Assembly: GCA_020152595.1 (NCBI GenBank)
Contig: JAIGNY010002044.1
Span: 823,501 to 887,500 of the forward strand
Direction: 5' to 3'
Source of the DNA: Chiridota heheva
Lineage: Eukaryota > Echinodermata > Holothuroidea > Apodida > Chiridotidae
Length of the DNA stretch: 64,000 bases
Below the pieces are notes generated by a model. It was given only the letters and a program-made list of their open reading frames with translations, did not search any database and had not been told where the DNA came from. The position numbers and the translations under genes were made by a program. Shown here piece after piece: positions 18,317 through 62,352 of this stretch (its first letter is position 1; each line of letters begins with the position of its first letter).

Positions 18317-18513
18317 CCCATGTTTTTGTGTGTACAAGTATGTTAGCATTATGACGGTTGTCCTATAGGGGCACAATTGTGTTGCATAAACTGTGGTATT
18401 TGTAATGTTTATTGTAGGTGAAGGACTTGTTCATACATTCAAGTATTCTTTCATTTATATTCTTTGAATTTAAGATTAAAAATTTCATTTATTTGTTTTT
18501 TCAGCCAATTACC

Positions 18514-19740
18514 ATGCCACGTAAAAAGAGGAACTGGACACCAAAGCAGGGAAATTGGTCGCAAGAAGCAATGCAACAAGCAGTCAAAGCAGTCAAGGAG
18601 AATGAAATGGGGGTACGCAAGGCAGCGCTTACCTATGCTGTCCCAAAGTCAACCCTCCAGCGTCGAGTGCAAAAGAAAATAATGGACATGCCTGCCTCCA
18701 GACCTCCTGTTTTTAAGAATGACGAAGAGGAATTATTGCTAGCCCATATTCTTCACATGGAGAGTATGGGGTTTGGCCTCACAATTGATGATGTTTGTAG
18801 GGTCGCCTTTGAAATGGCACATGAAGCAGGCATCACCAACAATTTCAACAAAGAAAAGAAAAGAGCTGGATATGACTGGTATGTTGGCTTTCGGGAACGT
18901 CATCCAACTTTATCTTTACGAAAACCCGAAGGACTTTCAGCAGCTCGAGCAGCAATGCTTAATCCAACTGTAATTCAAGATCATTTCAAGAGATTGAATG
19001 AGCTGCTTACATCAACTGACTTGAAAAACAAACCAGCTCAGATATTTAATGCTGATGAGACAGGATTTAGCCTTGTGCACACACCTTCGCGCATTCTTGC
19101 TAAGAAGGGTAAGCGAACAGTTCAGGCAAGAACTAGTGGAGAGCGCGGTGAGAATGTTACAGCCCTCATTTGTGCGAATGCAGCAGGTAAAGCTTTGCCA
19201 CCTTTTGTTATTTTTAAAGGGAAACGATTGAGTCCTGCCATAACTTTACATGCACCACCAGACACCCTCTTCGGAGTTAGTGACAGCTCATTCATTGACG
19301 CAGAGCTATTTGAGATATGGTTTTCGAAGCTCTTTCTCAACAACCTTCCTCCTGCACGACCTGTTCTTTTGGTGTTAGATGGCCATGGATCCCATTTGAC
19401 CTTATCAACTCTCAAACTGGCCAAAGCAAACTCAATCCACATGTACTGTCTTCCTCCCCACACAACCAACCATACCCAACCTCTTGACAAGTCAGTATTT
19501 AAGTCTATGAAGTCAAGTTATAACAAAAAGTGCGAGAAATTCATGCGTGATAACCCTGGGAAAATCATTACTCGGTATGATTTCTGTTCTATTTTTAGAG
19601 ATGTTTACCTCTGCGAGCTCTCAATGTCAAACATTGTCAGCGGCTTCAAGGGTACAGGAATTTATCCTTTCAACCTCAAGCTATTAAGGAGAACACCTGC
19701 AGCAATCGTCAATAGCAACAAAATTTCACAAAGACTGTGA
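18514..19740 (+). CDS. pogo/Tigger-type DDE transposase, nearly intact, frameshifted near the C-terminus
   Basis: This enzyme would bind the terminal repeats of its own element and catalyse cut-and-paste transposition. From the ATG at 18514 the ORF has 408 codons. Residues 12-60 form a psq-type helix-turn-helix (NWSQEAMQQAVKAV ... AVPKSTLQRRV), and residues about 65-150 the CENP-B-type second DNA-binding region with GYDWYVGFRERHP. The DDE_1 catalytic core has Asp181 (FNADETGF), Asp289 (LVLDGHGSH) and Asp325 (HTQPLDKSVF), a DD35D spacing. The frame is open about 30 codons further upstream, but TTTTTTCAG just before 18514 looks like a splice acceptor or leader, so I start at MPRKKRNW. The ORF stops at 19740. 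In the +1 frame about 85 further Ser/Thr-rich codons run to a TAG at 19997-19999, suggesting a single-base deletion near 19720-19735. It lies between RPS19 and IFT57, opposite in strand to both. No clear terminal inverted repeats were found. Confidence 0.88.
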   Translation: MPRKKRNWTPKQGNWSQEAMQQAVKAVKENEMGVRKAALTYAVPKSTLQRRVQKKIMDMPASRPPVFKNDEEELLLAHILHMESMGFGLTIDDVCRVAFEMAHEAGITNNFNKEKKRAGYDWYVGFRERHPTLSLRKPEGLSAARAAMLNPTVIQDHFKRLNELLTSTDLKNKPAQIFNADETGFSLVHTPSRILAKKGKRTVQARTSGERGENVTALICANAAGKALPPFVIFKGKRLSPAITLHAPPDTLFGVSDSSFIDAELFEIWFSKLFLNNLPPARPVLLVLDGHGSHLTLSTLKLAKANSIHMYCLPPHTTNHTQPLDKSVFKSMKSSYNKKCEKFMRDNPGKIITRYDFCSIFRDVYLCELSMSNIVSGFKGTGIYPFNLKLLRRTPAAIVNSNKISQRL

Positions 19741-45476: not shown

Positions 45477-48400
45477 TCAATTAACAAGCTTAGCAAGTTT
45501 AACTTTGAAACAGTTTAAACTTGGTGCATGTACAATGTCCGATGGTAAAGCATTGCAATATTTTAGTGTTTGAGGAAAGAAGTAGTATTTGTAAACATTC
45601 TCTTTAGCATGAGGAACGTGGAAATTCAGATCATCGTTATTTCTTGTATTAATTCTTGCGTTTGGGATCAGGTTATCATTATCAATGGCGACAAGACTGT
45701 TATTGATTTTATATAGCATTTTTAGACGGGTGTCCCTTCTTCTTGTTATCAGCAAGGGCCAATCTAATTTATGAAGCATGCTAGTGACACTGGATTTATA
45801 AGAGTAGTCTGCTATACAGAACCTGGCTGCTCTCCGTTGAATTGATTCAAGCTTATCTACATCGCACTGGTGACGGGGGTCCAAAACTGTTGATGCATAC
45901 TCAAGTAGAGCTTTATACAGTAGTTTTATCTACCTAATGTGGTGTAGCGGTTATCATACCTGTCTGCAGACCACGAGGCCCTGGGTTCAAGCCTGGGTTG
46001 GGTAGACACGTCAATGCACCACAACTGGTTATCAAAGTGCGTAGACATTGACTTGGTTGTCGATGTTATGTCTGTCCGTACGTCGTGATAGCATTGTTAC
46101 TATCATAAGCGAATACGCAGGCGACGACCCCGTCATTGTAATTGTGTGTTTATTCGTCGTCATCGTCAGTGGGACAGTTTGAAAGGTTACGTCTTAATAG
46201 GCCAAGTACAGCGTTTGCTTTGTTGGTGATGTTGTGTATATGTTTATCCCATCTGAGTTTATCATCAATTTCAACACCTAGGTACGGGTGGGAGTTGACA
46301 TGTTTTAGCGGCTGGTTGCACAAGGTATAAACTGGTGATTTATAGCATTTTCTAGGAGATATTGAGAGGATGTAGCATTTAGAGGGGTTGAAATTCATTT
46401 GCCATTGTTTAAGTTTATTCAGATCATCTTGGAGGATTTGTTGGCCAGAGGGTTTATCAGTTGTTCTATACACAAGACAATCATCAGCAAACAGTCTAAC
46501 CGTGCTGTTTATATTATCAGCCTGGGATGTTATTGACATATAAAAGGAAGAGTAAAGGACCTAAAACGGTACCTTGTGGTATACCAGATAGAACTTGTTT
46601 AGGATTTGATATTTCGCCATCACAGACAACACGCTGAATGCGGTTGCTAAGAAAGGATGCAAAACAGGCCAGTAGATTTCCATCAATGCCATATGCGGAA
46701 AGTTTGGATAAGAGACTTTGGTTTGGGACTTTATCGAACGCTTTTGAGAAGTCAAGTATAGCCATAGAGATGGCACTGTTTTGGTCAAATTGTTTGGAAA
46801 TATCATTTATTGTTAAGAGAAGTTGTGTTTCAGTTGATCTTTTTGCTCGAAAGCCATGTTGGAGATCAGTTAATATATTATGCTCATCAAGGAATTTCAT
46901 CACATGTGAGTGGATTGTATGCTCAAGGATTTTACTACACACGCAGGTTGGCAGGTAAGAGAGACTGGTCTGTAATTAGCTGGGTCGTGTTTATCACATT
47001 TTTTAAAAATGCTACATATGTTTGCTTCTTTACACTTGTTTGGGATAGTACCGTTATCTACAGAGATTTGGAAGAAATCATACAGAGATTTGGAAGAAAT
47101 CAGTTAGGATTTCATAAAGGTCTTCCGCATGTATTTTTAAAAACCATGGTGGTAAATGGTCGGGACCTGAGGCTTTGTTTGGTTTAGGTTTTGCAGTTGC
47201 TTTTTGACACCTTCTGGAGTGATTATAAGTTGTTTTATTTTGTTGGTGGTGAGTGGTTTAGCTATAGGGATTTGAGAGGTATCTTCTTCTGTGAAAACGC
47301 TGAAAAACTAGTTGTTTAGAATGTTAGCTTAAGTCATACTGTCACTACAAAGTTTACCGCTATTCATAAGGTCTGACACCATCACGGAATTATTTCTAAG
47401 TCTTTCTATGTAGGACCAAAATGCCTTAGGGTTTTCAGTTAGAGAATTTTTCAGTTTAGTACAGATGAAGTTGTTTCTAGCTTCTTTGAGGTTTTTACGA
47501 ACAGATTTCCTAAAGCTTTTATATGTAGTATTCCAGTCATGGATTTGTTGAGTTTTCTTAGCTTTCTTGAACAGTTTATGTTTTTTCTTGCAGAGACGGC
47601 GTTGGATATGGGTAAACCAAGGTAGATTTAGTTTAGTTGAGGTGAATTTGTGAGGTGTTTTTTTTTTTAACAATCAGTTTATTTTCCTTTTCAAAGAAAT
47701 TCCATTTTTCATCAACATTAATGGATGAGCTATTAAATTTACAATAATATCGCAGTCTAAGTTTCGACAGGTCTTCTTTGATGCGTTTTGTGTTAGCTTT
47801 TATCCTTAATAGATTTTACGTTTAGACAACTTCTTACGAGGGGAGATGTTTAGGGTCAGTTCAACAATATCATGGTCACTTACACCGGGTATGACGTTAG
47901 CTGAGTTAACAGCTGGTGAATTGTTAGTAAATACAAGATCAAGAATGTTGTTATCTCTGGTAGGTGACTGCACCATTTGAGTGAGCTTGAATGAATCGGC
48001 CACTTCAAGAAGCATTTTGGCTGCTTCGGAGCAAGCGTTAGTGCCTGAAATAATGTTTTAGCTCCAGTCAATGTTAGGTTGGTTGAAATCACCAGCAAGA
48101 ATAACATTGTTTTTGTCAGCATTTCCCCTAACTTTTGTAGTGATTTTCTCAACTCAAGAGGGCTAGTAAGGTCATTGTGACTGGGCGTGTAAAAAAGTCC
48201 TACATACATGCTCTTTTCCTTCGGGAATTGGAATTTGGTCCAGATGATCTCACAGTCAGAGTCTAATTTAGTGAGCTCAGTGAAAATCAGGTCATTTTTT
48301 ATTGCCTGTAGTACACCGCCATAAGCATTTGTACTTCTATATTTGCAAATGACTGTATAGTTGTCGGGAAAAATTGAAAAAAATGTTGATTTCGGAATTT

Positions 48401-49347
48401 AGGTTTCAGTGCCAATAATGACATCTGGGTCTTTGTCTTTTATAAGACTTTCAGTGAAGGCTCTCTTGTTTCGAACACTTTAAAAGTTGATAAAGTTGAT
48501 AACAAGAAGATTTAGAACCTTCCTTTTTACTTTTTTTTAGATAAGTTTTCAATTTGAAATCGGGATGGTGGTTGGACCCTGAGTCAAGGCCGAAAGAATA
48601 AGTTTGAAGTGCCTTATATGAGTTAGTACAGTTGATGGAATTGTTAGTTGAGAAGAAAGAATCGGAGAAGTTTATGAAGTCACAAGTATCACATATCCAG
48701 ATACAGCTAGAATGCATGAGGTCGCTGTATTTTGAGTCATCAATGTTGCAGCACTTAGTATGGATCCATTGATCACAATTGTCACACTGTACTAATTTAT
48801 CAGATCTCCTAAACTGGAGTCCACACAGGCTACAAGGAGCCGAACAGTCCGAAGAAAACCAATCGTCGGTTGATGATGCAAGGGTGTTGTAAGCTGCATT
48901 ACTAATGCCTGCACACTTACTATGAACCCACGAGTCACAGTCATCGCAACAAAGTACCTTTCTGGTTATTTTTGACAGATTTGTTGCATTCTTTGCAAGA
49001 AAAAATTGGGAAGGGTCCAGGATTGCTTTCGATATCACCAGAAAGGGTACGGTAAGGAATAAGAGGAGTAATTTTCTTTTGTGTGATTTGAATTTTGACA
49101 ATTTCCAACTTGATCTGTACGAATGTAATTGCCCATCGATACATAGATAAGTTGTGAGTGTGTGATTTGTATAATCACTCAGAGCAAACAAGACAAGGTA
49201 GCCAGTTTGTGGGGCATTTAGAGGCAAATTTGAGGCCTGAGACAAGTGGGGTTGTGACGAACGTAAGGCGTTCAGAGAGTCGGAGGCTCTAGAATATGTT
49301 ACCAAGAACAATACATGGAAAAAGTGGTTGTGAGTTAGAATAAACAT
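45477..49347 (-). mobile_element. CR1/L2-like LINE with PHD fingers, decayed
   Basis: Minus-strand fragments appear in the expected order. 49347-48451: two Cys/His-rich PHD-like fingers (CCDDCDSWVHSKCAGIS and CDNCDQWIHTKC). 48209-47806: end of an endonuclease (NILDLVFTN ... GVSDHDIVE). 47673-47329: linker (WNTTYKSFRKSVRKNLKEA ... KAFWSYIERL). 46942-46517: RT fingers and palm (LQHGFRAKRSTETQLL, DFSKAFDKVPN, GIPQGTVLGPLLFLLYVN). 46539-46150: RT catalytic RLFADDCLVY. 45884-45477: C-terminal DKLESIQRRAARF to a stop. Frameshifts separate the pieces, so no intact protein is made. PHD fingers are a known feature of some CR1-like elements. A SINE (45928-46165) interrupts the region after the RT core. 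Confidence 0.9.
45928..46165 (+). mobile_element. tRNA-derived SINE inserted in the LINE, plus strand
   Basis: It begins ATCTACCTAATGTGGTGTAG, with GTGTAGCGGTTATC (A box) and GGGTTCAAGCCTGGG (B box), then CACAACTGGTTATCAAAG and CGACCCCGTCATTG. It splits the LINE between the residues NLSNCPTD and the resumption at LYKALLEYASTVLDP. Orientation is opposite to the LINE and to the SINE at 44925-45206. Confidence 0.8.
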
Positions 49348-50029
49348 GATTGACGAATCTGATAAACAATTAATATAGGCCTAGGCCTAACGTTACTACC
49401 TAATGATATAGGCCCTTTACTTGACCACAGGAAAAACAACAGCCAAAGGCTGCAATGGACACTAATATTGTAATAGGAAGATAAGGAAATGAAAATGAAT
49501 GAAATAATGTAAGAAGGCAAACAATAAACTTACTCAGGACTCAAATTGTTCTTAACTTCCAAACACCAAAAAAAAAAAAAAAAATCGGAAATGATTGTAA
49601 ATACAAATAGTGTGTAAGGATAAATAACATAAGGTTCACTAACGCTTACGCGAAAATAACAAACACGCTTTTAAACGCTTTTTGAAAGCAATCAATTGCT
49701 ACATACATGTCTGAATGAAATAAGATTTGATAAGCAACTTATTCTTGTAAATAAAACTAAAATTATTGCCCATATTTCTCAGCGCTTACGTCGGTCAAAC
49801 TTAAGGTTAAACTAAGGGTGTACAAACGGCGTTAGCTAGCTTCAGACTGTTTAACAACAACTGGCACAATTAAGATAGCACATTATTTTAGATATACCGA
49901 AATTGTTCAAGACATCTACTAGTTTTAATCATTTATCCCTTATCAGAAAGATTGTTCGCGTATTTTATTTCTTAAAATATACTTAGGCTTATCAGTTAGG
50001 CCTAAGTTGGTAGGTGCGATACATGCCTG
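49348..50029. other. 5' flank of the LINE, no gene seen
   Basis: This may include the LINE 5' region. A poly(A)-like run is at 49567-49585. No exon was recognised. Confidence 0.4.
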
Positions 50030-54045: not shown

Positions 54046-57000
54046 CGTAATTCATTCCGGTATATCCCCACCTGAAAGACAAAATAACACTTCACTTCAG
54101 TTCGAATAGCTGACCACTAAGCAGCTAAGGATTGCTAGGAAGTGGACTCAAATTAGAAAAAATGGAAATCCATTATTATAACACGGGTCATCAATTGCAT
54201 CAATAGGGATGGGGTACACGTCTTTGTTGTTTATAGAGTATGCATGGTGTCAAATCCATCTTATTTTGTCCTTGTATTCACTACACGGTTATGCAGACCG
54301 CCAACCACTTATAGTGGCGTGGTGTTACAGGATTTAACCCTATCCCATTCCCACATTTACCTGCTACAAAAGTATTTATCATAACCAACCCCAGGATCCA
54401 CATGTTCCATTTTTTGGCTGAAAAAATAGATTAAGAAGTTAAAAAACTACGTAAGTGTTTTGCATGAAATAATATATATCTCACCAATCCCAGCATGCAT
54501 TTGGGTTATCAGGTAGATATGGATACGCCTGAGGATATATGACGATGATGTCATTTAATTCCACCACCTCGTTGTAGCCAGTCGTTCGAGCAAACAAATC
54601 GTCCATGAAGTATCTAAACCAATAGTAAGTACTTATGAGGCGAAAAACTAAAGTTGGTAACGAACAAATTTGCAGTTTGAATCATCCTAATTCATGATCT
54701 TCTGGACTGCACACAAGCTATGTATAAAGAATGCATGTATCGGCAGGGGTGGCGGAGCGTTCAAAATATTGGGGGGTGGGGGCTAATGAGGTCAGGTAGC
54801 ATGTGATAACAGTATTGGGGCCTAATTAGGTCGTGTAACGTAATAACACATGTTCACCTAAAATTATTGGGGGCTGAAGCCCCACGCCCCGACTTCGCCG
54901 CCCTGTATCGAAATTGAACGAATGTCGACAACACCTGAAACCTATGGTTTGGGCTTTTTAAGTGTAAACCTACTTTTGTAGTAAGAATGATAACAGAAAA
55001 TCAATGTAAAAGATTCATATACATGTGGAAGCGAAGAATCCCCCGGGATAGTTGAACCAAATTATGGCTCGTTCTAACTGCAGAATCAAGTATTCTTTAC
55101 AATTCAATACCAGAATATTTTTAAAATTTTATTTCAACTTTGTGAGTCAGCATCTATCCTATACGACCAATACTTTTAGAAACAAGAAAACGTTCGTTGT
55201 TTCAATGTCTCATAATGCAAGTAACTATAATTGATCAACAATTAATAAGAAGCAATCTTTACCACATAAGCCTATACACTCCAAACTTTCAATGGTAGCT
55301 GAATGCTCTATAATTGGTAGTAGTAACTACTATTGGTCGACGCAATTCAGCCGTTTGAGTGAGTGAGGGGTACCAGGAATTGCCCCATGGGGCAAATGCC
55401 GACACCCCTCACTCACCCAAACGGTTGAATTGCAACAATTTTGCTTTACCTGCTCTGCTGACATCCATGTAAGGCGACGTGAACTCTGCAATCTGTGGAA
55501 TTCAATTGAATTGATAACCCAGTTCTAGTAGTGCAAGAGGAATCCAATATGCCACTGACAAGATTACTTCAAAAGAGAATGATCCCGTTCAACAACATCT
55601 ACCCTTTGTCCCCGGTAAATACGTCTGGCCCTCGTTGGGAAGCAATAAAGACAAAACTTGAATCTAGGTACATGTCCGGGAGCAACCCGAAAAACTGGAT
55701 ACTTTGAAATAACCAAAAAATTGGGTATTTTTATGTATTACGTCTTTGCATGAGCCTACACATTTGACTAGCCCACATCCAAAGCGGAAAATGAGAAAAC
55801 CCGTACGTTTGGTGTGGGCTAGTCAAATGTGTAGGCTCATACAAAGACGTAATACATAAAAATACCCAAATTTTTGGGTATTTCAAAGTAGCCAGTTTTT
55901 CGGGTTGCTTCCGGACTGACATGTACATGACTTTTGTATTCACATAGTGAAGTGAGTGGTCCGCCCGCCTTTTCAGAAACATCGTTGCAAAGGCTGAAAG
56001 GTCCTTTGATCTTTTTGTTGAGAGCGTTAACAAACGTTGCCCCCGCCCCCACATACATTACACATAATTTTTAGATTATGTCATCGCCTCTGAATGTATC
56101 GGTATACGTTACGAATTTAAATCCTGTCGAAGCGGCCATCCGAGGGAGGCTGGGGACGACAATGGCTGCCCACTTTTCACTTTTCTCGGACAAACCCAAA
56201 TGTTTTCATGTAGAATCGAAACAAAACATTGAAGTTGTTCAAACTTTGTCCAAGTTTTGATAATTTCCCATTGGAAGATGTAAGAGAAACTTGTTTACCC
56301 GATGTAGCCATGTCGCAGCCTGTCGGGATATAGACAAACCCGACGTTATCCATTCCATGTTGGGTCGGATTTGTGATGAACGAGGATTGGTTAAAAGCAT
56401 AAAACTGTTGAAAGAATGAAGTTATTGTAAAGTTATGAAAACTTCATCGTCGATTTTTTATGGATCAATAAGTTCTCTTTTTTAGGAACTACAAATAACG
56501 TGCTGGCCGGGCCAATACTCTCCAAAAGGATTGTGGGCAGAGACTTGATGGGAATTGAATGTATACGCTCTGAAACACCTGGTCAGATTTTCATGGTTAT
56601 CCGATTATTCAGTTTTTCCTTGTCAATATAACCAGGGACAATGTTAAGCTGGCAGGCACAATGTATAATGTAATATTAAGCTGACGAGGAATGCGGTTTT
56701 GGTGACGTTCTTATGAATGAATCTGTGATTGTTCAAGGCTATTTTTCGCGAGTACGTACGTATTCAAGAAGCTGTTAAGCGACCAAGAGTTCCGTCTTCG
56801 TGATCGAGTATGTTATCATTGAAAACAAATTTGTTAGAAAAAAAAAACAACTTCACCGAAGCTTAAAGGAATAGTAGACTGAAAAGTGAGGGCATTTTCC
56901 CCCAAAATTAAATGCTTATGTAACACGCAACAGTATAGCAATTTTCTGGTTAATAAGAATATTCAAGTAATCTTTGCCCCCACGTCGTCTGTTTGAGGCA

Positions 57001-60000
57001 TGCAGTTTATCGATCTGTTGTGGATAATATATCTGTGAAATTCGCAAAGACGAGCGCCCCCACATTTCGGTATAGTGCTCCTTTAATATGTCATTTCTTT
57101 TCGCAATTTGATTCTGTGGCTACTATTTGACTATACTACTCTGTAGGCCTAAAACATTAGGAAATTATAGTACAGTGCTGTATTATCAGTACTGTACAAT
57201 AATTTACTGGCTGGTCATTAAATTGGGAAGAATAAGAAATACTACCTTAATCTTCCAAAATAATGTATACTGTTGTCAGGTTGTAAGCCTCAGACTGACA
57301 ATCACAAAAAGTTGAAATGAAGATTATTTTTTCTTGAAATGACTACATTCATCGTTAAGATGCCATTATTTTGCCTCGACACCTACGACAGTGCTACTCG
57401 CCCTCATTCATTATTTCTTTAAATAGTGTACACGCTGTGTCACCCTTAAACCATTCCCGAAATAAACTCCGTACGTACGTATGTACAGTGCACCTATAAG
57501 TGTATACTGTATGTATGGCGTGGGGGGAGTGAAGCGTGAATTTTCGTGGCCTTGATATGTTCGATCTTCCAACATGTGTACAATCAGAACATAGCTGATG
57601 TTAAGGCGCAAATCTTTCATGAAATTAACACGGATTTTCCTAGAAATTGTGTCCAAGAGTGTGCATGCGAGACTATGACCGTTGTCCTACTTAATTGTTA
57701 ACATTGTCTTTGGGAAATGTAACCTCTTTGTCATTTAGAGCGTATGATTATATGTTGTGTGCGTTGATGATCTGATGATGTAGCCTACTTACATTTTCCT
57801 CCGACGTGATGTGCTCATCCGGTTTCTACACAAGAAGAGAATCGTGCATTAATTCTATACAAATCTATATAATGGGATAATATTTCTAATTTCTATCTTG
57901 AATTTGACCAAAGAATTCTCACGGATTGATATCGGCGTTTTAGTTTTTCGCAAAGAGAGTTGTTAATGAGTGGAATGTTTTGCCTGAGTGGGTAGTTAGC
58001 TCCAATTCTGTTCACAATTTTAAAGTCAACATTGATAAGTTCTTTACTAACTCTGGGTATCTTTGATTTCTTGTTGTTGTTGTGGTGGTGGTGTTAGTTT
58101 GGGCTTTTTATGGGGTGATTCACCCTTCTTAGCACGTCATCTTCTTATGTTATGTTATGCTATATTATATAGTATTTAAAAACGCAGTATTTGCAACTTT
58201 TTGACTCATTGTGAATCAACAAATCCGAGCTATCAACTATCTTAGTATTTCCAGAACTTTTTAGGAAATTAGGTAATGTAAAAGCTTTTGGGAGCTACTT
58301 TTCATTCTCCACCAATCCAGTTGTTTTACAGATTTTATTGTCTTTTTGATTTGGACACAAAACTAATTATTAAACTAGTCCAAACACTGTCCGTTTTTAA
58401 ACTTAATATTCTTGAAAAAGACAATAAAAGAGAGAATCCTAGGAAAGCGCTTTATTATATATGCATCCTTTTGTGCGCCAGTTGTAAGCTGTGACGATAT
58501 GACGCTGGGAGACACCGATATGCCAATTATGTCCTTTTGAAAAGGGGCTCCTTTTAAAGGTATAACCTGACGGACCCACCATAAGCCCGAGAACCTGGTG
58601 CCGAGGCGAATATCGTAAAGATCGAAATTTGAGTTGTATCAATATGAAGTGACTGTTTAAGAACAAGTAATGGCTCAAAACCAGTTCTGAATAGGGGCCT
58701 ATACAGTGACACTGACCGCTTGATGCAGTTGTTAACCTTTTGCTGTTTTGAATTTTGCTCTCCAGAGTCTCTAAATATTACAACAAAGTTTAACAAAGGG
58801 GGCTGAGCACCCCAAGGATCTCCCTCTGATATATCTCTGTGTATAACTTACCATTAGGTTCCCTCCATAAATGTGATTTAGCAGATCAAAAGCCTGATTG
58901 TAATCACAATCGCTGATCCACGGGTACTGAGAGACAGTTGAACACACGTTTCCTTCTGTTTCGGTAATCTGGGAGACAAACGAGGTATTCGAAGTTTTAC
59001 AGTAGAAGGATGGACTATCAGACATAAATAGTTTGCACCTTAGCTTTAGGAACTGGGGCACGTACCATCACATTTAACACCATAGTTTAGTAGTTGGAGC
59101 ACGTTCCACCTTTTCTATTTACCTCCTTACTATTATGATGGATATCCGACACCTGTGGTGGGCAAAATCTTTATGAGAAGTGAGGGACATGGTTCCCAGA
59201 TTACATACTGCACTTAAATCATTCATTGCCACCTGTCATAAATTGATCTGTGGTACTGAATTGTTAAAAAAAAAAAGCTCAAATTTATCAAATTGCGACA
59301 GTCAAAACTCACGTAAGCAGTCAAAACTCACGTAAGCAGTCAAAACTCACGTAAGCATGTCAAAACTCACGTAAGCAGTCAAAACTCACGTAAGCATTCA
59401 AAACTCACAGTCAAAACTCACGTAAGCAGTCAAAACTCACGTAAGCAGTCAAAACTCACGTAAGCATTTCAAACTCACGTAAGCAGTCAAAACTCACGTA
59501 AGCAGTCAAAACTCACGTAAGCAGTCAAAACTCACGTAAGCAGTCAAACTCACGTAAGCAGTCAAAACTCACGTAAGCAGTCAAAACTCACGTAAGCAGT
59601 CAAAACTCACGTAAGCAGTCAAAACTCACGTAAGCAGTCAAAACTCACGTAAGCAGTCAAAACTCACGTAAGCAGTCAAAACTCACGTAAGCAGTCAAAA
59701 CTCACGTAAGCATATCAAAACTCACGTAAGCATATCAAAACTCACGTAAGCAGTCAAAACTCACGTAAGCAGTAAACAAAACTCACATAAGCAGTCAACA
59801 TCATGTAAGCAGTCAAAATTCACGTAAACATGTCAAAACTCACGTAAGCAGTCAAAACTCACGTAAGCAGTCAAAACTCACGTAAGCATGTCCTGCAGGA
59901 AGTGAAAATTCAGCGAGAATGTTGGACGAGTTGACGAAGCCGTCATAGTAATCCCACAGTGCCTGCATGACCTCTGAGAAAAGACACATGTAATATCCAT

Positions 60001-62352
60001 TTCAATCAATCTTATTTATCCAAGGATTAACTCGGGCAAGAATGTTCAGTGGTCCAGTGGCTCAGTGGAGTCACGTTACTACTGTATACGTATTTGCTAC
60101 TCCAGTTCAATCAGCTATTAAATGAGTACCATTTTTGTCTGGGATTTCACCTGCGATGGACTGGTCTTTCATTCAGGGAGACAAGTACTCTCATCCGCTT
60201 GTGCCGTGGAAACCGACATGATTAGCACCGCAGTATGGGCCTAATGGCTCTGATGGCCTTAACGTGAACGTAAATCTTTCATGTCATATTCAGGTAACGT
60301 AAAAATTAACCAGACATGGAAATTGACATGGACGCATGCGCACAAATTTCATCATTCTTATTGCATCTTATAAAATATGAGTTGTAATTGCCATGTCAAT
60401 TTCCATGACTGTTTAATTCTTACGTTACCTGAATCTGACATGAAAGATTCGCGCCCTTACATCAGCGATATTCTGATTTTCCACATGTTGAAAAATCAAA
60501 CACTTCAAGGCCACCGAAAATTCACGCATCACTGCCCCCATATTCTATACATACAGTGTACAATTATACATAAACTATACATACGTGCATACAGAGTTGA
60601 TTTAGGAATGGTTTAAGCGTGACACAGTGTGTACAATATTTGTGAAATGTTTTGTGAGGGCGCTGCGAGTAGCACTGTCGTAGATGTCGGGCACAATATT
60701 TGCATAAACTGGATCTTTTGTGGTAGCGTATCTTTGGAGTTGCACAAATATGATGCAACGTAAATGTTTACATGGTCAACACTAGAAATCTAGTATCGTT
60801 GGTGTAGAAAGAACATTGAATTCTGAGAATTAAAGCCTTTAAATTTTGAAAATGCTTAAGCCTATAGTTATGGTTGATAAAAGATTGAAAAATGCAAAGT
60901 TAGGGCAGGATGTATAAACCAACTGACAAAAAGACTGTTGTTACTATTTCTTGGGTTTGATTATCTGGAAATGATGAGAATGCACGTCTTTTCTACTAAC
61001 ATTTTGATTCGGGTATTGATCAGATCGAGAAATAAAAAACAGATTTTGACAGAATTAGCTATTTCCAGATTATTAAAGGACAATAGATTAACATAATACA
61101 AAAAAAAAGTCTGCTAGTTCATGCATGACCAATTTGCATATTGATACTTGAATTCAAATAGTGCAAAGGATATATGTTTAACCAAAGTGACAATATTTGG
61201 CTTTTGTTACATAGTTTTTGAAATACATTTTTCGGACAGAAATAATTATTCTGAATAATTCTCTTACCAGGTACGACGGACAAGTCATTTGAGCCACTGA
61301 ACAGGTAAATTTGATCATCTTTCATATTTGTGAAAGAATCGATGCGATTTAATACCGAAGACGCTTTAGTAAATTCTTGAAGATTTTGAATCGAAATGGG
61401 TTCAAGATACGACATACACCTAGAAACGGCAGTAGATATGTCTCCTTCGGCACAGTGGTATGGACCTGCAAGAACGAAAATACAATCATTTGAGTTATAA
61501 AAGTTTGAGCTGTCATTTACAGTTTAAACGTTAAACGGACGTTAGATGCGTTTAAAATTCCACACAAATGTTTAAAAAGGTGAATTAAAATATCAAACAT
61601 TACATTACATTACATTTACTTGGAGCATATCTTTTCCATGTTAAAGTTTGTTTGAGTTATTTACAAGAGAAATCAATTTGAACAATAAATATGGACGTTT
61701 GTGACATGTGGCCTATTGAACGAATGTTTTATTTATATGTTCCGAGCTTTAAGCGCTTCTTTTCATAAACAAATGTCACTTTCAAACTTGATAGCATATA
61801 GGGTTAAACGACCTAAATGTATATGCAAGCAGTAGCTGTGCTCACGTTAAATGGACTAGAAAAAAACAACCACGTACCGTATAAAAAGATAAAGGTATAG
61901 CATACTCTACTTTCGACGGAAATTTTGTAAATGCAAATAAATCTTCAAAACATTTACGGCGCTTCACATTTCTTTGGTGATGATGCCATCCAACACCATT
62001 ACTATATATTAAATGCTCTGGCCCAAAGTCTAGATTTTCCGGCGGATGTGGAATTTTTGCGCCGCAGTGTTATTCTACTGTTGCGTCCATACATGCCTAC
62101 AACGCCGACCATTAACGAACCATGCAATTGTAGTATACCAATTTTCGGGGGGGGGGGGGAGGGGTAAGGGGTGGACGGGGGGATCATCACCAGCCTCACT
62201 GTATGATAACCAAAAGAACATCACTTACCACCAGCTATGATACCAGCACCCATGAACGTTTGTGACAAGGCCACGTGTACTTGTACGGCCATGTACGCAC
62301 CAGAGGACAATCCACTCACCGGAAACTTGATCAGGATCAGCACCAAATGATC
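54046..62352 (-). CDS. Poly(3-hydroxybutyrate) depolymerase-like esterase, nine exons, incomplete at both ends
   Basis: Alpha/beta-hydrolases of this family hydrolyse short-chain polyester or other ester bonds, and bacterial and fungal members are secreted. Nine minus-strand exons join in phase: 62352-62229, 61465-61268, 59973-59882, 58968-58852, 57825-57793, 56404-56299, 55492-55450, 54613-54485 and 54071-54046, all GT-AG. Order of motifs: GLSSGAYMAVQ (nucleophile Ser), GAGIIAGGPYHC, YLFSGSNDLSVVP (Asp), LPAGHAY (His), CDYNQAFDLLNHIYGG, GFVYIPTGC, CRVHVALHGCQQ (oxyanion segment), TGYNEVVELNDIIVIYPQ and NPNACWDWWGYTG. With the Ser-Asp-His segment before the HGC segment, this is the circularly permuted type known from the Penicillium funiculosum enzyme. 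Missing are the N-terminus (presumably with a signal peptide) and about 15-20 C-terminal residues. A weak last exon at 53624-53599 (acceptor TTTCTCCAG, eight residues and a stop) fits the phase. Exon 62352-62229 shows an apparent frameshift (see findings), so the allele may be inactive. Each exon boundary was fixed by phase and homology. The physiological substrate in an animal is unknown. Confidence 0.9.
55338..55434. repeat. Palindrome of about 95 bp in a depolymerase intron
   Basis: Arms CAATTCAGCCGTTTGAGTGA and TCACCCAAACGGTTGAATTG, extended by GTGAGGGGT/ACCCCTCAC, pair with few mismatches. The centre contains GCCCCATGGGGC. It may be a very small inverted-repeat element or a cruciform-forming site. 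Confidence 0.8.
55667..55927. repeat. Long inverted repeat, arms about 105 bp, in a depolymerase intron
   Basis: The left arm (from about 55667 to 55780) and right arm (from about 55822 to 55927) are nearly perfect inverse copies, for example TGAGCCTACACATTTGACTA against TAGTCAAATGTGTAGGCTCA, and GAAAAACTGG against CCAGTTTTTC. The loop is about 40 bp. It is non-coding and lies between the exons 56404-56299 and 55492-55450. Confidence 0.88.
56863..57086. mobile_element. Small TTAA-flanked inverted-repeat element (family D)
   Basis: Left end TTAAAGGAATAGTAGACTG and right end GGTATAGTGCTCCTTTAA are imperfect inverse copies with TTAA at both ends, length 224 bp. It shares TTAAAGGA with families A, B and C but not the body. 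It lies in a depolymerase intron. Confidence 0.65.
57370..57665 (-). repeat. Dispersed repeat, minus copy (partner at 60440-60690)
   Basis: Read on the minus strand it shares CATGAAAGATT, CATCAGC, CAAGGCCA, GAAAATTCACGC, GGAATGGTTTAAG and GTAGCACTGTCGTAG with 60440-60690. Both copies are in introns of the depolymerase gene in opposite orientation. No coding potential is conserved. Confidence 0.7.
57895..58170 (+). mobile_element. LINE 3' end (VVNEW family), truncated
   Basis: Matches 50330-50590: GTTGTTAATGAGTGGAATG, GTTAGCTCCAATTCTGTTCA, CACCCTTCTTAGC, with the tail TTATGTTATGTTATG. Only the last part of the ORF and the 3' end are present. It lies just upstream (in gene direction) of depolymerase exon 57825-57793. 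Confidence 0.78.
59299..59890. repeat. 19-bp minisatellite, about 30 units, overlapping a splice donor
   Basis: The plus-strand unit is CAGTCAAAACTCACGTAAG, with a few variants (CATGTC or CATATC in place of CAGTC). On the gene strand the unit reads GTGAGTTTTGACTGCTTAC. The array begins inside the end of exon 59973-59882: the exon's last bases CTTAC and its donor GTGAGTTTTG form the first unit. The units are contiguous, without spacers, so this is not a CRISPR array. Confidence 0.97.
60265..60450. repeat. Inverted repeat, arms about 65 bp, in a depolymerase intron
   Basis: AATCTTTCATGTCATATTCA pairs with TGAATCTGACATGAAAGATT; GGTAACGTAA pairs with TTACGTTACC; CATGGAAATTGACATGG pairs with CCATGTCAATTTCCATG. 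The loop is about 60 bp. It lies between exons 61465-61268 and 59973-59882. Confidence 0.85.
60440..60690 (+). repeat. Dispersed repeat, plus copy (partner at 57370-57665)
   Basis: Shares ATTCTGATT, CAAGGCCACCGAAAATTCAC, GGAATGGTTTAAGCGTGACA and GTAGCACTGTCGTAGATGTC with the partner. It abuts the inverted repeat 60265-60450, whose right arm may be its left end. Confidence 0.7.

Follow-up and report, generated by a model that had tools for sequence, protein, structure and literature searches.

Tandem repeats located at exon–intron boundaries have been described for several animal genes. Intron 18 of human ABCA7 harbors a VNTR with a 25-bp unit, the first GT of which is the donor of the upstream exon (PMC5954066). 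There, retention of one unit is given as 2 +/- 1% at steady state, higher when decay is blocked and not varying with VNTR size, and skipping of exon 19 is described to rise with VNTR length (p = 3.24e-13; PMC5954066). In amphioxus, so-called mirage minisatellites are found in Adh3, globin, TnC and PGBD5, and normal splicing as well as clusters that are unstable in length are reported for them (PMC3087553, PMC3902484). The minisatellite of the human IFI6 (6-16) gene, as summarized in a later paper, provides multiple splice donors at an exon end, and the use of two downstream repeat units results in three mRNAs (cited in PMC4526556). Finally, variable internal tandem repeats at exon–intron boundaries are reported for duplicated human genes (PMC2812944).

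Here we analyze a minisatellite that starts at an exon–intron junction in Chiridota heheva. The analyzed stretch of 64,000 nt, referred to as the window, corresponds to positions 823,501-887,500 of the forward strand of contig JAIGNY010002044.1 (assembly GCA_020152595.1), and all coordinates given below are those of the window.

Results

The host gene resembles a type-2 PHA depolymerase

Ten exons on the minus strand, extending from 62352 to 53096, can be joined into a continuous reading frame that closes with a stop codon, and all introns between them begin with GT and end with AG. The original prediction had called exon 59973-59882 as part of a depolymerase gene, and this call is sustained by the frame in which the exon joins its neighbors. 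The features of the gene are as follows:

62229..62352, minus strand: exon with the nucleophile motif GLSSG (open frame, paralog exon, relatives)
61268..61465, minus strand: exon 2 with the catalytic Asp column SND (open frame, 2D80 alignment)
59882..59973, minus strand: exon 3, ending GGA CAT GCT TAC, with CAT as the catalytic His column (frame, splice sites, 2D80, relatives)
59876..59881, minus strand: first 5' splice site GTGAGT in the context TAC/GTGAGT (frame test, paralog intron)
58969..59881, minus strand: array-bearing intron of 913 nt with the acceptor tgtctcccag (open frame, splice sites)
58852..58968, minus strand: next exon (ITETEGNVCST...), phase 0 junction (frame, 2D80, relatives)
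57825-57793, minus strand: exon (open frame)
56404-56299, minus strand: exon (open frame)
55492-55450, minus strand: exon (open frame)
54613-54485, minus strand: exon (open frame)
54071-54046, minus strand: exon (open frame)
53154-53096, minus strand: last exon with the stop codon (open frame)

Judged by sequence similarity, the gene product from VSGLSSG onward is a type-2 short-chain-length PHA depolymerase, a polyester-degrading enzyme family. It scores 350.1 bits against the NCBIfam model NF050059 (cut-off 280, E 1.1e-104), and Pfam PF10503 reaches 19.9 bits, under its cut-off of 23. Comparison with the solved fungal relative 2D80 (E 4e-44) reveals that the columns of the catalytic Ser, Asp and His are kept (GLSSG, SND, GH). 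Ser39, Asp121 and His155 are named as the catalytic residues in PMC5445757. The histidine of the gene aligns to index 135 of the 2D80 chain, taken as His155 with the offset of +20 between chain index and named residue numbers that we counted in the present analysis, and its codon is followed by two more before the exon, the probable seed of the array, ends.

As relatives, 57 loci were fetched from bacterial records. The His-region motif was found in 25 of them, a biased sample as the motif demands His-adjacent residues, and these 25 loci, judged by eye, continue into residues resembling those of the next exon (e.g. AGHAMITETDG). The full-length alignment with 2D80 likewise contains no large insertion between GHAY and ITETEG. 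From this continuity and the 2D80 alignment, it seems that nothing belongs between GHAY and ITETEG in the predicted protein.

The array repeats the exon end together with its donor

On the minus strand, exon 59973-59882 ends with GGACATGCTTAC at 59882 and is directly followed by GTGAGT; read across the junction, the exon end CATGCTTAC passes into head-to-tail units of GTGAGTTTTGACTGCTTAC. The features of the array are:

59299..59888, minus strand: minisatellite with the 19-nt unit GTGAGTTTTGACTGCTTAC, 31 units past the exon (TRF, unit list)
59787..59804, minus strand: unit 5, in which the donor is lost (ATGATG; unit list)
59403..59408, minus strand: donor at +473, after a truncated 13-nt unit, the most exposed internal GTGAGT (0.06-0.07 in local folding)

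TRF delimits the array to 59299-59888 with a period of 19, 31.1 copies, 91% matches and a score of 984, the top score among 33 TRF rows in the window, and the last seven exon bases (59882-59888) fall inside these limits. An array of about 30 units right behind the exon end and its GTGAGT had been predicted, which the 31 units bear out. While 19 of the 31 units are exactly GTGAGTTTTGACTGCTTAC, 12 differ (units 3-6, 8, 9, 18, 22, 25, 26, 28 and the partial unit 31). Units start with GTGAGT in 29 of 31 cases, with GTGAAT in unit 4 and with ATGATG in unit 5, so that the GT itself is lost only once in 31 units, in line with the earlier statement that few units are altered there. The longest stretch of identical units comprises eight (units 10-17, mid-array), which suggests a recent expansion in the middle of the array. 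A 20-mer of the unit, searched with up to three mismatches, gave 27 matches, all of them inside the array, and none in 100 shuffles. Bases of the donor hexamer are changed in 2 of 31 units and the other 13 bases in 10 of 30; compared as raw counts, these numbers lend no support to selection on the donors within the array.

The array is furthermore rich in CpG (28 CpG, observed/expected 1.27 vs 0.59 for the window); the first G of the donor sits within a CpG, and changes there are present at the junctions of units 5 and 6. TACGTG, the core of a hypoxia-response motif, occurs in 28 copies in the array and in 44 in the window on both strands.

Only the first donor keeps the reading frame

We followed the reading frame from 30 donors of the array, i.e. 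29 GTGAGT and one GTGAAT. Donor 1 alone keeps the frame to the final stop and yields the family protein (GHAY-ITETEG). Each unit shifts the frame by one base (19 mod 3 = 1): the 19 nt added by donor 2 put the next exon out of frame, where a stop is reached, and transcripts from donors 3-30 or with the intron retained carry the TGA of unit 2 in frame. Premature stops result for each of the 29 later donors tested; they lie 392 to 996 nt upstream of the last exon junction, and mRNAs with stops at this distance are expected to undergo decay. The original prediction, according to which later donors add multiples of 19 nt and meet a TGA within two units, thus agrees with the frame test, as does its conclusion that the choice of the first donor matters, since only donor 1 of 30 is predicted to leave an intact product. 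As the bacterial relatives, the paralog described below and the frame test all support it, GTGAGT at 59876-59881 is taken as the authentic donor. Its designation as a strong donor has to be withdrawn: the calculated pairing of the array donor with U1 amounts to -5.5 kcal/mol, the second weakest among the nine donors of the gene, with TAC on the exon side.

The array probably grew from its own junction

A paralog on another contig (C113) has an intron at the same phase-0 position, with GHSF before VTENYG and the donor TTT/GTGAGT. In the 1035 nt examined, this intron contains one GTGAGT and no array at the junction; at least one unrelated repeat (15 nt x 3) is located about 400 bases further in. 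With an array-free paralog that possesses one GTGAGT, a single-copy junction is likely the ancestral state. A gain of the array is the simpler polarity, though the other polarity would be possible given the identity of only 39-68% between gene and paralog across five pieces.

At the splice junction, the units are in register with the exon end. All 11 final exon bases recur in unit 28 and 10 of 11 in each of units 3, 8, 9 and 22. For 22 of the 30 repeated junctions, the agreement with the exon end extends over exactly seven bases until a first difference appears. As described for mirage minisatellites, the unit spans the exon–intron boundary, with the exon end and GTGAGTTTT in register, and by sequence the authentic boundary is kept and a normal protein is predicted from the first donor. 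This register and the array-free junction of the paralog argue for the earlier proposal that an exon–intron junction seeded the minisatellite. No other junction duplications were found in the gene, the best 19-mer match in the other eight introns being 10-13/19 vs 19/19 here. When a 31-nt two-junction pattern was searched in the 1.1-Gb assembly with up to three mismatches, all 20 matches fell into this array; two other DNA matches in the assembly are arrays of 19 and 20 nt with other units. Since the two-junction pattern is confined to this locus, the sequence points to local growth of the array.

In the simplest history that we infer, the last 11 exon bases and the first nine intron bases, GACATGCTTAC followed by GTGAGTTTT (20 nt), would have been duplicated in tandem, most intronic copies would then have lost one base, and expansion within the intron would have led to 31 units. 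The exon copy would have remained unexpanded because coding constraint held it fixed. A DNA hairpin as the cause of expansion finds little support, as the array folds as DNA with only -49.9 (sense) and -18.3 (antisense) kcal/mol.

Donor-containing arrays are common in this genome

The window contains 12 arrays with a period of 10-100 and at least three copies (TRF, overlapping rows merged, this array included). Three GTGAGT at short spacing gave 19,233 matches in the genome and the reversed motif 25,214, both being counts of matches and not of arrays. Since the reversed motif is the more common one, donor-containing arrays look like a by-product of a repeat-rich genome. If the array density of the window is scaled to the genome and about 200,000 donors are assumed, several hundred arrays genome-wide would be expected to overlap a donor by chance, a rough estimate that ignores selection. 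Among the matches listed, other minisatellites with GTGAGT in their unit are located on contigs C1, C2, C3, C7, C13 and C14, the example on C3 having a 35-nt unit in which an ATATCAG end precedes GTGAGT. In a weak survey by eye of unannotated sequence, a convincing coding exon before the array was seen at none of the five places examined out of ten distinct ones among the matches listed.

Further features of the window include an open 440-aa transposase frame at 18418-19740 on the plus strand (DDE_1 E 1e-25, HTH_psq E 4e-10), presumably pogo-like, and, at 45477-49380 on the minus strand, what looks like pieces of a LINE-type retroelement, with an RVT_1 reverse transcriptase at 46520-46975 (E 9e-17) and a PHD-finger frame at 48454-49380 (E 4e-13). 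At 55674-55916, an intron of the depolymerase gene carries an inverted repeat with arms of 109 nt that are 94% complementary and 25 nt apart, which may represent a small palindromic mobile element. Searches of the window with Rfam (gathering thresholds) and ARAGORN (bacterial code) found nothing.

The repeated splice site is self-complementary

In RNA, the junction segment GCUUAC-GUGAGU self-pairs over 12 positions, including G-U pairs, with a calculated energy of -15.5 kcal/mol; for the other eight donors of the gene, self-pairing ranges from +0.6 to -9.7 kcal/mol. The exon end GCUUAC resembles the 5' end of U1. One unit alone forms a hairpin of -4.0 kcal/mol, and two junctions reach -15.0 to -15.5 kcal/mol. 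When the hexamers of the gene's exons were set before GTGAGT, 12 of 922 paired fully and three of 922 equally strongly, own junction included, and none of the 211 hexamers ending in G was as strong as this junction. Of the 31 junctions in the array, 27 carry the canonical sequence, and in one of the others all 12 positions can still pair. The open-licence literature yielded no description of a donor array as self-complementary, and the calculated self-complementarity of its donors is a new feature of this array. The original prediction of a field of equal donors was hence correct with respect to some 30 repeated donors and not with respect to their equality, as it overlooked that the donor segment is self-complementary.

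The whole array folds as RNA with -246.6 kcal/mol in sense vs -55.3 kcal/mol in antisense orientation, and with its flanks it reaches -251.7 kcal/mol, whereas 20 shuffles average -146.6 (z -14.7). Arrays of permuted units fold equally well or better in 4 of 60 cases, and in 8 of 60 if GTGAGT is kept, and strong folding by itself was dropped as special evidence for this reason. The distinctive point in these models is not strong folding as such but the location of the paired segment, which coincides with the splice site. Arrays built from the nine junctions of the gene range from 0 to -263 kcal/mol, with this junction being the lowest and the next ones at -215 and -208.

The predicted opening of donor 1 changes with the length of intron included. 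It amounts to 0.12 at 6 nt and 1.4e-3 at 19 nt and drops to 1.5e-10 at 25 nt, when the pairing partner is out. With 57 nt the value is 2.7e-3, followed by 3.7e-6 with 200 nt and 4.0e-5 with 300 nt. In local folding, the opening of donor 1 is 6.6e-3, 1.9e-3 and 3.3e-4 at spans of 40, 80 and 150, and the array median 1.2e-4, 1.5e-4 and 4.0e-4, respectively; donor 1 thus exceeds the median at the two shorter spans and not at span 150. At span 80, the only one computed for them, the other eight donors of the gene show openings of 1.9e-4 to 5.7e-2, which renders donor 1 the second least open of the nine. Some array donors, e.g. the one at +473, are more open than donor 1 in local folding. The predicted burial of donor 1 therefore depends on the model settings, and self-masking of the later donors is plausible as chemistry and unproven as biology.

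Discussion

The locus is probably a junction-seeded minisatellite of the amphioxus mirage type, in which the first donor is mostly used, the later ones are mostly silent and the array acts as a mild brake at most. The first donor would still be used almost always because it is the sole one that adjoins the exon, the sole one that preserves the frame and the sole one transcribed before any complementary partner. The later donors would be mostly silent, in part because their 12-nt segments are self-complementary, with neighboring GCUUAC-GUGAGU segments forming 12-bp hairpins. Leakage to donors 2-30 would result in premature stops and probable decay, so that the output of the gene should be lowered mildly at most. 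The use of the first GT in ABCA7 and the normal splicing of amphioxus mirages serve as precedents that support this explanation. Caution is nevertheless indicated because permuted arrays fold well, the donor at +473 is more open and the gene is possibly broken.

The latter point leads to a reading that we consider somewhat unlikely, in which the frame break in exon 62352-62229 is real and the array is a neutral passenger in a dying or dead gene, rendering the choice of donor and the array irrelevant. It fits the proposed origin of the array and conflicts with its proposed function. Within this exon, SFGADPDQVS and VSGLSSGAY lie in different frames, one base apart, whereas the corresponding parts share one frame in the paralog and similar residues are joined in the bacterial relatives. 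In the paralog, the exon is entered in the phase that corresponds to the first part, and in the gene that frame meets a stop in exon 2. A second copy of the locus was not found in the assembly. Against a dead gene speaks that the VSGLSSG frame (DHLVLILIKFPVSG...) is open through the whole exon, so that similarity is lost without a stop; the other nine exons are open with canonical splice sites, and a difference of one base could be a sequencing or assembly error. A single frame runs open through all ten exons, but the beginning of exon 62352-62229 resembles the relatives and the paralog only when read in a different one, and it looks like a frame break on the basis of this similarity and the entry phase of the paralog. 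The exon would represent either a broken allele, a one-base assembly error or a changed gene, and an intact paralog exon exists. This doubt about the frame weakens any claim on selection for donor choice.

Lower gene output, a role as a U1 decoy and length differences between individuals had been put forward as possible in the original prediction. An effect on expression stronger than the mild brake of our preferred explanation appears unlikely. Pairing and donor competition would lower correct splicing, and the copy number, differing between individuals, would tune the dose of the enzyme in a manner similar to ABCA7. Deleting the array brings the predicted opening of donor 1 to 3.7e-3, compared with 4.0e-5 if 300 nt of the real intron are included. 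At one setting, a single donor among the nine of the gene is less open than donor 1, which also has the second-weakest U1 pairing, and in ABCA7 skipping of exon 19 is reported to grow with VNTR length (p = 3.24e-13; PMC5954066). However, the one-unit retention is given there as constant across sizes (PMC5954066), and amphioxus mirages are reported to splice normally (PMC3087553, PMC3902484).

It is very unlikely that a self-masking array, in which every 5' splice site doubles as an anti-5' splice site, sets splicing efficiency through the parity of its copy number. At equilibrium, junctions would pair in twos: with an even count the first donor would be buried, with an odd count one would stay free. 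In ideal arrays, the modeled opening of donor 1 is 1.1e-8, 2.3e-9 and 2.4e-9 with one, three and five units, and 1.2e-4 to 1.5e-4 with 2, 4, 8 and 12 units. The last donor of ideal arrays is more open than the first, with 5e-4 to 1e-3 at even unit numbers, above donor 1. The variant units of the real array should blur such a rule.

Assemblers often misjudge the copy number of short-unit arrays, and an artefact that inflated a single junction would belong to this kind of error. We regard it as extremely improbable, as 12 of the 31 units deviate from the canonical sequence, among them two that are alike and the partial last unit, which argues against one unit having been copied, and as the array sits inside a 1.3-Mb contig, although the exact unit count is less certain. 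That a dispersed satellite or mobile repeat landed on the junction has next to no probability in spite of the minisatellite-rich genome (12 arrays in the window) and is ruled out at the sensitivity of the 31-nt pattern search (up to three mismatches, 1.1-Gb assembly), since the unit pair is present at no other locus (20 of 20 matches here), the two other DNA matches are 19-20 nt arrays with other units and exon bases belong to the unit.

Under the preferred explanation of a junction-seeded minisatellite, some 30 near-identical donors beside one exon constitute a natural experiment on how the first donor comes to be selected if sequence strength offers no guidance. The self-complementary unit leads to the testable idea that repeats silence their own spare splice sites, and the length of arrays in introns of this type may contribute unnoticed to variation in splicing.

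The array is a further example of a known, junction-seeded kind and not unprecedented. The term uncommon, used for it in the original prediction, needs to be softened and does not hold in the sense of unprecedented, given ABCA7, IFI6, the amphioxus mirages and the abundance of donor arrays in this genome. ABCA7 shares with our locus that the array opens with the GT of the upstream exon's donor (here GTGAGT at 59881 begins unit 1) and that the unit is not a multiple of three (25 there, 19 here), so that use of donor 2 leads to a frameshift and a stop. It differs in that about 12 to 427 units are described in people with RNA data, whereas our analysis covers one assembly and DNA only. For IFI6, a minisatellite is likewise reported to supply multiple donors at an exon end, but with later donors that are productive, whereas none of the 29 later donors here leaves an open frame. 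The IFI6 unit has 12 bp and keeps the frame. The duplicated human genes share the expansion of minisatellites at exon–intron boundaries; there, the repeats are tied to novel introns or kept in exons, whereas the intron studied here is common to gene and paralog (PMC2812944). Amphioxus mirages resemble our array as tandem repeats across exon–intron boundaries, with Adh3 units of 10-72 bp, and the reported cases of globin and PGBD5 differ in that their units are longer (about 150-160, 60 and 108 bp) and present in few copies. Together with the human and amphioxus cases, the array suggests that junction seeding of such arrays is a recurrent event in animals and that they are tolerated since the exon-proximal donor wins.
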